DNA of 64,000 bases from Planctomycetota bacterium. Its GTDB lineage: Bacteria > Planctomycetota > Planctomycetia > Pirellulales > Lacipirellulaceae. Positions 56,343-63,161 of the stretch are shown one piece after another. The notes beneath the pieces were generated by a model that was not told the DNA's origin, ran no database searches, and was given only the letters and a program-made list of their open reading frames with translations. Numbering within the stretch: the first letter of the stretch is position 1; each line of letters begins with the position of its first letter. The position numbers were made by a program, and so were the translations under genes. The stretch is from assembly GCA_013152205.1 (NCBI GenBank), contig JAADGV010000098.1:1-64000 (forward strand). Reading direction: 5' to 3'.

Positions 56343-57587
56343 ATGATCCGTAGCGCTCAGGATGACCAGCGAATCGTGATTACCGGCGTCGGGCTAACGG
56401 CCCCCAACGGGGACAATCTGGCCGACTATCGGGCTGCCCTCTTGGCCGGCAAAAGCGGCGTCGAGCCTTACCACATTCGATATGTCGGCGACACACTGGC
56501 AGGCGTCTGCCATTTCGACGAGTTGAAGTACCAAAAACGCAAAGAACTCCGCCGCGGGACAAGGGCCGGAAGTGTCGGCGTGTATTGTGCCAACGAAGCG
56601 ATCAGCGACTCCGGCATCGACTGGTCGGAAGTCGATCCGACGCGGGTTGGTATCTACGTCGGCGTGACCGAGCATGGCAACGTAGAGACCGAGAACGAAA
56701 TCAACGAGATCAAGGCTTTTGATTACGATACCAAGGTCTGGTCGCATCACCATAACCCGCGAACGGTGGCCAACAATCCGGCCGGCGAAATCACGTTGAA
56801 CATGGGAGTCACAGGGCCGCACTACACGATCGGCGCTGCTTGTGCCGCCGGCAATGCAGGCATGATCCAAGGCGCCCAAATGCTGCTGCTTGGCGAGTGT
56901 GATTTAGCGATTGCAGGTGGGGTGTCAGAGAGCATCCACACCTTTGGCATCTTTGCCGGCTTTGCCAGCCAGGGAGCCTTGGCCGAGCATGACGACCCAA
57001 CGTCGGCGAGTCGCCCATTCGACCGCGACCGAAATGGAATCGTCGTTTCCGAGGGCGGGTGCCTATTCACTTTAGAGCGATTCAGCGATGCGTCGCAACG
57101 TGGGGCCAAGATTTACGGCGAATTGGTTGGCTATGCGATGAACAGCGACGCCAGCGATTTCGTCTTACCGAATCCTAAGCAACAGGCCCGGTGCATGAAC
57201 ATGGCGATTGAGCGCGCCGGGTTGAATACCGACGATATCGACTTAGTTAGTTCGCACGCGACCGCAACTTCCAGCGGCGACATTCAAGAGTGTGATGCGT
57301 TGCGCCGGGTATTTGGCGATTCGCGTTCGACGCTGGTGAACAACACCAAAAGTTATATCGGCCATGCCATGGGCGCGGCCGGTTCTTTGGAACTTGCCGG
57401 CAATTTGCCGTCGTTCGAGGATGGGGTTTGCCATCCGACGATTAACGTGGACAATCTCGATCCCGAGTGCGAATTACCGGGATTAGTGCTCAACGAGCCA
57501 CGAGAGAATTCGCCCGTCGAGGTGATCCTGAACAATTCGTTTGGCATGCTGGGCATCAATTCAGCGGTCATTATTAAAAAAGTCTAA
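56343..57587 (+). CDS. Beta-ketoacyl-ACP synthase (FabF-like)
   Basis: A 414-residue thiolase-fold condensing enzyme. The triad is Cys167 in IGAACAAGNAG, His305 in SSHATATSSGD and His341 in YIGHAMGAAGSLE, so it should be catalytically competent. It ends NNSFGMLGINSAVIIKK, the family terminus. The start at 56343 follows from the N-terminal IVITGVGLTAPNG; the longer frame from 56205 is not credible. It is the first gene of the fatty-acid-type cluster and is followed by a dedicated ACP. Confidence 0.92.
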   Translation: MIRSAQDDQRIVITGVGLTAPNGDNLADYRAALLAGKSGVEPYHIRYVGDTLAGVCHFDELKYQKRKELRRGTRAGSVGVYCANEAISDSGIDWSEVDPTRVGIYVGVTEHGNVETENEINEIKAFDYDTKVWSHHHNPRTVANNPAGEITLNMGVTGPHYTIGAACAAGNAGMIQGAQMLLLGECDLAIAGGVSESIHTFGIFAGFASQGALAEHDDPTSASRPFDRDRNGIVVSEGGCLFTLERFSDASQRGAKIYGELVGYAMNSDASDFVLPNPKQQARCMNMAIERAGLNTDDIDLVSSHATATSSGDIQECDALRRVFGDSRSTLVNNTKSYIGHAMGAAGSLELAGNLPSFEDGVCHPTINVDNLDPECELPGLVLNEPRENSPVEVILNNSFGMLGINSAVIIKKV

Positions 57588-57645
57588 CTAAGCCGCGGCG
57601 AACCTAGCCAACGGCTCAGATGTTAACACGAGGAGTAACAGCAGC

Positions 57646-57906
57646 ATGACGGCAGATGATATCAGAGTAGAAATCCTAGATATTCTAGAGGTGATTGCCC
57701 CGGACGAGGATTTGTCGAACATCGACGACGCCGTAAATTTCCGCGACCAGCTCGAGCTAGACAGCATGGATTTCCTCGACATCGTGATGGAACTACGTAA
57801 GCGTCATCGGATACAAATCCCTGAAGACGATTACGTGCAGTTGGCCAGCATGAACTCGACAGTCACGTTCCTCGAACCGCTGATGAAAGACATAGTCAAG
57901 GCATGA
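57646..57906 (+). CDS. Acyl carrier protein
   Basis: An 86-residue ACP. The phosphopantetheine serine is Ser40 in ELDSMDFLDIVMELRKRH. Length and helix pattern are normal. The start has GAGGAG-like upstream bases. It lies 58 bp after the ketosynthase and before two FAD oxidoreductases, so it probably carries the cluster's acyl intermediates and not the general fatty acid pool. Confidence 0.93.
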   Translation: MTADDIRVEILDILEVIAPDEDLSNIDDAVNFRDQLELDSMDFLDIVMELRKRHRIQIPEDDYVQLASMNSTVTFLEPLMKDIVKA

Positions 57907-57911
57907 ATGAC

Positions 57912-57957
57912 GAATGACGAATGACGAAACCAGCAGCGAATTCGTCATTCGTCATTC
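57912..57957. repeat. Perfect 17-bp inverted repeat
   Basis: GAATGACGAATGACGAA (57912-57928) and its exact complement (57941-57957) around a 12-base loop, with an internal GAATGAC direct repeat. It starts 6 bp after the ACP stop codon and ends 19 bp before the next gene. Such GAATGACGAA repeats are common between planctomycete genes. Confidence 0.75.
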
Positions 57958-60381: not shown

Positions 60382-61830
60382 ATGCCCCGCGATTTTCTCA
60401 AAGACGCCAAAGACGAATACGACGTGGTTGTTATCGGCAGCGGACTCGCTGGCCTGACGTCGGCTAATATGCTCGCTCGTAACGGCCATCGTGTTCTCCT
60501 TTTGGAGCAGCACTACAAGCTCGGCGGCATGGCCACCTGGTTCAAACGACCGGGCGGGCACATTTTTGATATTTCGCTGCACGGGTTCCCGTATGGCATG
60601 GTGAAGAGCTGTCGCCGGTATTGGACCCAGGAGATTGCCGATTCGATTGTGCAATTGAATCACATCCGATTCGACAATCCGATGTTCTCGCTCACCACGA
60701 CGTTCAATCGCGAAGACTTTACCAAGCTGCTGATCGAGCAATTCAAAATTGCGCCAGAGGCCGTTGAAGGGTTCTTCGTCAAGTCGCGAAAAATGGATTT
60801 TCAAGACGATCAGCAAATGACGACCCGCCAGTTGCTCGACGAGTTTTTCCCAGGCCGCGAAGATGTCATCCGTCTGCTGATGGAGCCGATCACCTACGCC
60901 AACGGCAGCACGCTTGAAGATCCGGCGATCAGCTACGGCATTGTGTTTTCAAACTTCATGTCGAAAGGTGTCTTCACATTTCAAGGCGGAACCGATCGGC
61001 TTATCCAATTGATGGAGGCTGAACTGAAACACAACGGCGTTGATATCCACATCCGCTGCGACGTCGAAAAAATCCACTGCGATGGTGGCCAAGTGCGATC
61101 GGTCGAAGTGAACGGCCGAAAGATCAAAACCCGGGCGGTTGTCTCGAACGCTAATCTCAAGCAAACGATTTTTCGTTTGGTGGGCGAAGAGTATTTTGAT
61201 CGTCAGTTTGTCGAAGATGCCCAAGCGGTTCGGCTGAACAATTCCAGCACGCAAGTCTACATGGCCCTAAAGCCCGACGACCAGATTGACGAGTCGACCG
61301 GCGATTTGCTGTTTAGTTCAACGGCACCGGTCTTTCAGACCGACATGCTGTTGAGCCGCGACATTACCAGCCGAACTTTTTCGTTCTATTACCCTCGCAC
61401 GCGACCCGAAGGGCAGCCACGCTGTTTGATTGTTTCAAGCACCAATGCCAACTACGACGATTGGGCACACCTGCCCGAAGACGAATATCAGGCGAGCAAA
61501 AAAGACTTAGTCGAAACAACGCTCGACGCACTCGACAAATATGTGCCCAATATTCGCCAGCGAATCGACCACGCGGAGGCTTCGACGCCACGCACCTTCG
61601 AGCACTACACCAAGCATATAAATGGTGCGAGTTTTGGCACAAAGTTCGAAGGCTTAAAAGTCAGCTTCGACGTGCCGAAGCAGATCGAGGGGCTCTATCA
61701 CGCCGGTAGCGTGGGCATTATCATGTCGGGCTGGCTAGGAGCGATGAACTACGGCCGCATGGTCGCCGGTGACGTCGACAACCTGCTGATGACCGGCGGC
61801 TCGCGCTCAACAGTCGAGACAGCGTCGTAA
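60382..61830 (+). CDS. CrtI-like FAD-dependent oxidoreductase, second copy
   Basis: A 482-residue flavoprotein of the phytoene-desaturase group. FAD motifs: [35 protein letters not shown] at the N-terminus and [27 protein letters not shown] at the C-terminus. It differs clearly from the first copy, so it is not a recent duplicate. It is separated from it by the IS200/REP block (about 1.03 kb) and followed after 84 bp by the FabZ-like gene. Confidence 0.9.
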
Positions 61831-61914
61831 CCAACGAGGTATTGTAAAAAGCGGAAAGCCGGCCCCTTTCCCCCTTCCGATTTCCCCCTTCCGCCTTCCG
61901 ATTTCTCCTCCGCC

Positions 61915-62349
61915 ATGTCTTTAGAAAAAATCAAAGCCGCCATACCTCATCGTGAACCGTTTTTGTTGATCGACGAGATTATCGAGCAATCGGAAAATCG
62001 AATCGTCTGTCGCAAGCGTTTTTCGGGCGACGAATTTTGGTACGAGGGACATTTCCCAAGCTTCCCGATCACGCCGGGAGTGATTATTTGCGAAGCAGCC
62101 ATGCAGGCAGGAGCCGTGCTGCTGGCCAGCCAGATTGAGTCGCAAGAGGGCTATCTGCCGGTGGCGACTCGTGCCAACAACGTGCAGTTCAAAAGGATGG
62201 TACTCCCCGGCGATACGATCGATTTAGAAGTTGAATTGACCGAGCAACTGGCCAAAGCGTTCTTTCTCAAAGCTCGAGTGACCGTCGACGGAAAAGTGGC
62301 GACCCGATTCGATTTTGCCTGCACAATGGCCAAGCCCAAGGTATCGTGA
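61915..62349 (+). CDS. FabZ-like 3-hydroxyacyl-ACP dehydratase
   Basis: A 144-residue hot-dog-fold dehydratase. [13 protein letters not shown] opens the family; the active site is His46 in [13 protein letters not shown] and Glu60 in ICEAAMQAG. Length is normal. It overlaps the next gene by one base (TGATG), so they are translationally coupled. It likely removes water from the cluster's hydroxyacyl-ACP. Confidence 0.93.
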
Positions 62350-63161
62350 TGGTCGCCGATTTCTTACAGCTAGAGGGACGCCGCGTGCTGGTGTTTGGCG
62401 TCGCAAATCGAAAAAGCGTCGCTTACCACATTGGGCAAGTACTAGAAGAGGCGGGCGTCGAGGTAGTATACGTGGTTCGTAGCGAGCAACGCCGCCAGTC
62501 GGTCGCCAAGTTGCTCGGCTCCTCGGCCGTTTTTATTTGTGATGTCGAACACCAAGACCAAATCGATCAGCTCGCGACCGACTTGGCTGCGCAGTACGAC
62601 GAATTTCACGGCGTCGTCCACTCGATTGCGTTTGGCGACTATTCCGAAGGGCCAAAGCCGTTTCATGAAACCGACCGCTCACAGATGCTACGGGCATTCG
62701 ATATTTCGTGTTTCTCGCTGGTGGCGATTGCCGATGCACTAAAAAAACTGCTGACGGTCGATGCGTCGGTGGTAACGATTTCGATCTCGACGACACGGAT
62801 GGCGAGCGAAAATTACGGGTTTATGGGGCCGATCAAGGCCGCCCTCGATTCGAGCTTGGCTTTTTTAGCAAAATCGTTCAGCCGATTTTCGAAAGTCCGC
62901 TTCAATGCGGTTGCTCCCGGATTGCTAAAAACGTCGGCTTCTGCGGGGATTCCAGGGTATGTCGATTCCTATCTGTACGCTGAACAGGCGACTTTGCGAG
63001 GCCTAGCCGTTCAAACCGAAGAGGTGGCCTCAACAGCCGCCTTCCTGCTAAGCCCCCGATCCAGCGGCATCAATGCCCAACGGCTGGTCGTAGACGCGGG
63101 GATGGAAGTCAACTATTTCGACAAACGGCTGATCGACGGGTTTTTGCAGGGCGATCTATGA
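62349..63161 (+). CDS. FabI-like enoyl-ACP reductase (divergent)
   Basis: A 270-residue SDR of the FabI type: [22 protein letters not shown] is the NAD loop, and Tyr156 and Lys163 ([14 protein letters not shown]) sit at the same numbers as in E. coli FabI. The other conserved tyrosine (Tyr146 in E. coli) is isoleucine here (TISISTTR). It closes with [16 protein letters not shown]. The ATG at 62349 is the best start; GTG at 62346 is possible. It is the last recognisable gene of the cluster. Confidence 0.9.

Follow-up and report, generated by a model that had tools for sequence, protein, structure and literature searches.

The stretch considered here, which we call the window, comprises the first 64,000 nucleotides of contig JAADGV010000098.1 (assembly GCA_013152205.1), from a planctomycete of the family Lacipirellulaceae, and carries near its end an operon of six genes with a content resembling fatty acid synthesis. 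The first of them (56343..57587, on the plus strand, as are all six) codes for a FabF-type ketosynthase (KS) of 414 amino acids (aa) from its ATG, in an open reading frame (ORF) readable from 56205. This protein matches Pfam PF00109/PF02801 and has the fold and the Cys167-His305-His341 triad of such enzymes, while its FabF equivalog score (318.9) lies under the cut-off of 493.75. It is followed by a dedicated acyl carrier protein (ACP; 57646..57906; PF00550, 31.8 bits) with Ser40 in an LDSMD motif, whose position between KS and CrtA is kept across loci; by two flavoproteins of the CrtI fold, here called CrtA (57976..59352; PF01593, 46.5 bits) and CrtB (60382..61830; PF01593, 70.8 bits), each forming a clade of its own and each proposed to act on the double bonds of acyl-ACP; by a FabZ-type 3-hydroxyacyl-ACP dehydratase (61915..62349; PF07977, 75.5 bits; His46/Glu60); and by a FabI-like, pathway-specific enoyl-ACP reductase (62349..63161; PF13561, 189 bits; Tyr156-x6-Lys163). 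The Pfam families found are ketoacyl-synt N and C, PP-binding, Amino_oxidase twice, FabA-like and adh_short_C2, so that each gene has support. By profile score the dehydratase is of the FabZ rather than the FabA type (116 against 20 bits), and it alone among the operon proteins passes an NCBIfam equivalog cut-off, with one of two models (NF000582, 116.4 bits, cut-off 113; TIGR01750, 114.9 bits, below 155.15). A preliminary description of this region had reported six genes in a single direction, an intact KS triad, the phosphopantetheine serine of the ACP and a coupling of the last two genes. ORF positions, Pfam matches and residues bear all of this out, the stop codon of FabZ and the ATG of FabI overlapping in GTGATG. 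The upstream gene (54653-56020) was not counted as part of the operon, as it has no Pfam match and its relatives (component 86, 4 loci) flank the operon in close kin only.

Although the operon enzymes have folds and catalytic residues in common with those of housekeeping type II fatty acid synthesis (FASII; FabF, FabZ, FabI), the operon KS and FabI are only 35% and 32% identical, respectively, to other copies in their own genome and, unlike housekeeping enzymes, KS and FabI of the window type are present only alongside CrtA and CrtB.

The direction given for the cluster in the preliminary description is correct, but a mobile element within it had been overlooked. The 1029-bp spacer between CrtA and CrtB holds an ORF for an IS200/Y1-type transposase (59479-59931; PF01797, 101.7 bits), with palindromes resembling repetitive extragenic palindromic (REP) sequences on both sides of it (at 59399, 59987 and 60163, where none is expected by chance), all within 59376-60221; therefore, the six genes are not strictly contiguous. 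In Bythopirellula (L095), the same spacer measures about 114 bp. This junction is often opened in other loci (L094, L098, L102, L104, L106, L147, L153): several planctomycetes have 1-7 kb of unrelated genes there, and in L147 and L153 it is occupied exactly by oleABCD. Another insertion was observed in family f26, where a Y1 (RAYT-like) transposase domain lies in frame within the operon FabZ, at a single site, with FabZ resuming after it. The fusion, a frame of 399 aa (FabA-like, 75 bits; Y1_Tnp, 30.6 bits), was found in eight loci from six genomes (L060 at 11845-13044, L061, L062, L070, L088, L089, L165 and L167, the last two duplicating L089 and L060), and resembles a mobile insertion of the intein-like kind, which would leave its host gene open.

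Counterparts of all six genes were located in other genomes, for the most part with order and strand preserved, with tblastn identities of 58-84% for KS, 49-90% for ACP, 37-83% for CrtA, 43-86% for CrtB, 33-72% for FabZ and 47-82% for FabI. Consequently, the arrangement is more than chance, and the conserved synteny that the preliminary description had suggested looking for across planctomycetes does exist. In tblastn maps of the locus stretches, the order KS-ACP-CrtA-CrtB-(FabG)-FabZ-FabI is seen in many families. A scan of named genomes with the CrtA alignment, limited to the best 80 of 219 relatives (more exist), gave, by record titles, 51 Planctomycetota, 16 Opitutae, 6 Nitrospinota, 4 Deltaproteobacteria/Smithella, 2 Chloroflexota and 1 Bacteriovorax; an operon of like gene order is, in sum, found in bacteria of about six phyla. 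In this sample of 80, in which many stretches are too short to be fully informative, the order KS-ACP-CrtA is present in 59 loci and CrtB comes next on the same strand in 41. Among the matches listed, the closest named kin is Bythopirellula polymerisocia (CrtA, 81%), also of the Lacipirellulaceae. The absence of a ketoreductase from the cluster, which the preliminary description had pointed out, holds for the window but not as a general trait, since FabG stands between CrtB and FabZ in 7 of the 57 loci mapped (L054, L059, L064, L066, L072, L092 and L093). Additionally, a MarR/ArsR-like protein of about 200-230 aa lies immediately upstream of KS in 18 loci (component 18; for instance, L060 6570-7172, L054 6701-7378 and L173 6677-7360), none being found beside the window operon; it is likely a regulator of the operon.

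The preliminary description had made its reading depend on the two flavoproteins not grouping with carotenoid enzymes, and they do not. With the crtI_fam profile (TIGR02734, cut-off 238.1), which has members over the cut-off in 31 of the 199 Planctomycetota genomes sampled here, CrtA reaches 49.9 bits and CrtB 86.5, which leaves both outside this family. The best profiles are a carotenoid isomerase for CrtA (80 bits, cut-off 586.9) and desat_CrtD for CrtB (110 bits), weak ranks that by themselves decide nothing. In a phylogenetic tree, the CrtA (31 rows), CrtB (30) and crtI (19) sequences each lie on one side of a branch, with both supports at least 99, and the CrtI-like sequences of anammox bacteria make up a fourth separate group, equally well supported, which joins crtI (98/94) and not CrtA or CrtB. 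The tree was built without the own-genome rows (L001, L002 and L006), rows L216 and L222 and also L213 and L004; as long branches meet in it, how the four clades branch from one another is uncertain, and the clades alone were used. Although CrtA and CrtB share the PF01593 fold with CrtI, CrtD and CRTISO (best PDB matches 4rep, 4dgk, 3ka7 and 5mog), they are only 15-18% identical to the top carotenoid matches. A carotenoid function was rejected on the scores, below every carotenoid cut-off, and on the separate clades. The structure models (CrtA, predicted local distance difference test score, pLDDT, 90.2, nearest PDB entries 4rep and 4dgk; CrtB, pLDDT 88.1, nearest 4rep) point to a CrtI/amine-oxidase fold only, which may serve an isomerase as well as a desaturase.

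A partner for the operon is found just beyond the window. OleABCD are the enzymes of head-to-head olefin synthesis, and in the genome of the window OleA is encoded on the other strand of the same contig (C8:65715-66722), 2.5 kb past FabI; it lies 1.7 kb outside the window end and was invisible to the preliminary description. This genome has all four ole genes: OleA (316.8 bits) on C8, OleB (256.9 bits) on C57, and OleC (573 bits) and OleD (394.5 bits) adjacent to each other on C102. Between FabI and OleA there is a protein-kinase-like ORF of 515 aa (C8 64040-65587; L077 14041-15588), so called from its glycine-rich loop, with relatives in 9 loci (component 29).

The linkage is closer in other lineages. 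In L147 and L153, two complete Myxococcota/Deltaproteobacteria loci, the genes run KS-ACP-CrtA-OleA-OleB-OleC-OleD-CrtB-FabG-FabZ-FabI on one strand, and the order is the same in Smithella (L157) and Bacteriovorax (L173) up to the end of the stretch. OleA comes after FabI in seven Opitutae loci, and in a Dehalococcoidales locus (L137) each of two KS copies is preceded by an OleA gene. Clustering of neighbouring ORFs yielded the same picture. Most of the conserved families proved to be antisense shadows of high-GC genes, and those lying over the seven seed genes were dropped. Components 9, 12, 13 and 8 lie upstream of KS in many loci (39, 29, 26 and 44, respectively), and their sequences are OleA-, OleB-, OleC- and OleD-like. 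With NCBIfam, the OleA family passes its cut-off (NF006720, 394.8 bits), while OleC (olefin beta-lactone synthetase model, 553.6 bits), OleD (337.5 bits) and OleB (haloalkane dehalogenase model, 179.4 bits) stay under theirs (900, 580 and 241). A tblastn recount placed an ole gene in 31 of the 80 named loci (best 80 of 219) and in 20 of 40 unnamed ones. A link between oleABCD and a FASII operon of this CrtI-like kind did not come up in any paper found by our literature searches, which did not extend to subscription literature and are, thus, no proof of absence.

The association does not depend on proximity alone. In the sample of 199 Planctomycetota genomes, CrtA has matches in 101 at E 0.001 and is orthologue-like (at least 283 bits) in 42, the next score, 101 bits, being a cross-match of CrtB. 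CrtB (at least 415 bits, next 120) is present in exactly the same 42 genomes, and KS (at least 375 bits, next 248 at 38% identity) and FabI (at least 231 bits, next 134) are each present in 41 of them, KS being missed in an 82% complete genome (G184) and FabI in one where the contig ends (G151). OleA (at least 180 bits) is found in all 42 and in 29 others (descriptive Fisher p 2.9e-24). Family f4 includes complete genomes in which the set is scattered, over 2.6 Mb in G024, yet all its genes are kept; linkage alone, therefore, does not explain their co-occurrence.

The remaining OleA genomes have another partner, the Pfa synthase (PfaABCDE). PfaA (TIGR02813, at least 600 bits) is present in 37 of the 199 genomes, and the 71 genomes with OleA divide into 41 with the CrtA set only, 28 with PfaA only, one with both and one with neither (p 1.8e-17, again descriptive). 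The two kinds of OleA genomes belong to 10 and 15 families, respectively, with no overlap. Eight PfaA genomes have no OleA at 180 bits, four of them from the anammox family f45; G171 has a split OleA (135 bits). The OleA tree follows the same division: the 19 Pfa-partnered rows (from the 28 genomes) form one clade with support 100/100, while all 46 rows partnered by the CrtA set, drawn from planctomycetes, Opitutae, Myxococcota, Smithella, Bacteriovorax and one Dehalococcoidales record, fall outside it, as does the row of the genome with neither partner (G003, on a long branch). Like the operon, Pfa is found beside or with oleABCD, OleA genomes without the present set need it, and in the four Pfa loci examined OleBCD come after PfaA as far as the stretches reach. 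By contrast, Pfa belongs to the giant type I enzymes, with many domains, FabA-like dehydratases among them, whereas the operon codes for separate small proteins plus two CrtI-fold flavoproteins. A strong PfaA was not found in the window genome (best E 1.2e-38), and the operon proteins are single-domain, without the multidomain architecture and several ACP domains of PfaA.

These patterns bear on two other uses of the operon. Its chains, unsaturated or otherwise modified, could be destined for phospholipids in general, with the tie to ole genes being secondary; the FASII-like gene content would suit this, and the polyunsaturated fatty acids (PUFA) made by Pfa also enter phospholipids in marine bacteria (PMC6463001), but OleA would not then be expected in all 42 carriers, nor in a partner-specific clade, nor would the set and Pfa so rarely occur together, and we regard this explanation as improbable. 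Alternatively, the chains that the set supplies to OleA might lack polyunsaturation (e.g., be monounsaturated) and give an ordinary long-chain alkene. OleA of some bacteria does use ordinary FASII chains (PMC6463001), but an ordinary supply needs neither a KS, ACP and reductase of its own nor two flavoproteins, and the partner whose place the set takes is, in sister families, PfaA, all of which makes this second explanation still harder to accept.

We consider it probable, instead, that the operon is a type II (dissociated) polyunsaturated acyl-ACP synthase that feeds OleA and leads to long hydrocarbons such as C31:9 or a close relative; this agrees with the proposal of the preliminary description that the locus is dedicated to an unusual, perhaps polyunsaturated, lipid, and conserved synteny supports it. 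What we infer for this pathway is its product, with the length and double-bond pattern of the chains, and the reactions of the two flavoproteins. KS would elongate the chain on the dedicated ACP; a FabG, which some lineages encode within the operon and the window genome elsewhere, would reduce it; and FabZ would dehydrate it to trans-2-enoyl-ACP, which the FabI-like enzyme would reduce in some cycles, while in the remaining cycles CrtA and CrtB would keep or place double bonds without O2. Head-to-head coupling of two polyunsaturated chains by OleA would follow, with OleD, OleC and OleB completing the long polyunsaturated hydrocarbon. The lack of a thioesterase in the cluster fits this scheme, because OleA can take acyl-ACP directly, as it does in vivo from the Pfa synthase (PMC6463001). 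The set is also found in records labelled Smithella and Dehalococcoidales (best 80 of 219), lineages of strict anaerobes, so that a need for O2 is not expected. Pfa would yield the same kind of chain as the operon, C31:9 being predicted to derive from two 16:4n-3 chains (PMC4882568). Furthermore, polyunsaturated hydrocarbons have been reported from Planctomycetes, and Desulfotalea psychrophila makes C31:8 and C31:9, no Pfa having been found there by the authors of that report (PMC2649909).

How the double bonds would be set is a matter on which two proposals are about as likely. By our own derivation, building 16:4n-3 in C2 steps would take, in order, a reduction, a 2-3 isomerisation, a 2-2 isomerisation, a reduction, a 2-3 and a 2-2 isomerisation and a final reduction. 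In Pfa, the isomerisations are carried out by FabA-like domains, and CRTISO offers the precedent of a redox-neutral isomerase of the CrtI fold. Since 16:4n-3 needs two kinds of isomerisation plus reduction, and the operon has one reductase (FabI-like), FabZ, not FabA, and two flavoproteins otherwise left without a role, we tentatively propose that CrtA and CrtB could be the two isomerases of enoyl-ACP, one for trans-2 to cis-3 and one for trans-2 to cis-2, in a fully dissociated, O2-independent PUFA synthase with an origin independent of Pfa. Some FabZ enzymes isomerise, and the operon FabZ might itself contribute to double-bond isomerisation. It is also quite possible that, within the same pathway, CrtA and CrtB are not isomerases at work during elongation but O2-independent acyl-ACP desaturases, which would oxidise a chain already made, saturated or monounsaturated, with quinone as the electron acceptor. 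The nearest folds of the models, γ-carotene desaturase (4rep) and phytoene desaturases (4dgk, 5mog), the best profile of CrtB and the desaturation proposed by Rattray et al. for related D. psychrophila genes (PMC2649909) would agree with this. On the other hand, the operon has its own KS, ACP, FabZ and FabI, more than desaturases need, and the best, if weak, profile of CrtA is that of an isomerase.

Several observations weigh against a polyunsaturated synthase feeding OleA and should be set beside those above. The bit thresholds were placed at gaps seen in the results, and Fisher tests ignore shared ancestry, while the set and PfaA both follow families; as the two kinds of partner are confined to 10 and 15 families, independent events are far fewer than genomes, and the Fisher values are descriptive for this reason. 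Exchange of partners is also imperfect, since G196 has both PfaA (647 bits) and the CrtA set, and G003 has OleA with neither. In the window genome, OleB, OleC and OleD are unlinked to the operon, OleC (573 of 900) and OleD (394.5 of 580) score below the NCBIfam equivalog cut-offs, and the REP/transposase element may disturb operon expression. Among the best 80 of 219 relatives, many of them short stretches, ole genes are present in 19 of the 51 loci from Planctomycetota, in 7 of the 16 from Opitutae and in none of the 6 from Nitrospinota. Finally, for every carrier of the set the product is a prediction from the genes.

The preliminary description had also pointed to the ladderane loci of anammox bacteria and, with them, to a cyclised lipid. 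The likeness is real, for the FASII clusters of anammox bacteria and Desulfotalea also have fab genes beside CrtI-like genes (PMC2649909), and a novel O2-free PUFA route has been proposed for them (Rattray et al. 2009; Javidpour et al. 2016); the two CrtI-like enzymes of Kuenenia made no lycopene (PMC4790861). However, the anammox loci have the order ACP-FabZ-KS-KS-CrtI, unlike the operon, their CrtI-like proteins belong to another clade, and their FabI lies elsewhere (PMC2649909, a report which does not discuss Ole genes). In our sample, the anammox families are f45 and f76, with hydrazine synthase alpha in 9 of 10 genomes, and searches with CrtA, CrtB and KS found no orthologues of the set in these ten: the best matches are of 112 bits for CrtB, 54 for CrtA and 240 for KS, against orthologue floors of 415, 283 and 375. 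Anammox CrtI-like genes adjoin other KS genes (30-33% identity), and no OleA orthologue was found in the genomes of the anammox loci. No radical S-adenosylmethionine enzyme or methyltransferase, as looked for in an anammox ladderane cluster, was found among the annotated genes of 50000-63161, the Pfam scan covering the genes from 54653 on and the kinase. One record titled Kuenenia (L126) does hold KS-ACP-CrtA, but its KS and CrtA are 86-88% identical to those of a Planctomycetia record (CrtA, 88% to L155) and next closest to Gimesia-like ones; on this resemblance we take the label to be probably wrong and the origin to be in the Planctomycetia. With the CrtI clades separate and L126 apparently mislabelled, a ladderane-like product of the operon is very improbable.

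As a separate observation, 4 of 8 genomes of the anammox family f45 (G122, at L245, G153, G049 and G106) encode a type I synthase like PfaA, in frames of 2777-2915 aa scoring 802-828 bits, with no OleA orthologue; in Kuenenia, Rattray et al. found none of this kind (PMC2649909).

The origin of polyunsaturated C31 hydrocarbons in bacteria with no visible PUFA synthase, such as D. psychrophila, was left open in an earlier report (PMC2649909), and the set described here is a concrete candidate across phyla. If the proposed pathway is right, small individual enzymes could assemble polyunsaturated chains with no need for O2, and CrtI-like fab clusters could be sorted into hydrocarbon and ladderane kinds; if CrtA and CrtB were isomerases, they would be the first CrtI-fold proteins to isomerise acyl-ACP. 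The set could be moved as a block of seven or eight genes, together with oleA, into E. coli, with the 31:8 ketone as read-out, for which there is a precedent with Pfa (PMC6463001). The gene association is strong and, although the chemistry is what we infer, our best reading of the set is that of a polyunsaturated acyl synthase of a second, dissociated type, which serves head-to-head hydrocarbon synthesis and most likely stands in for Pfa.

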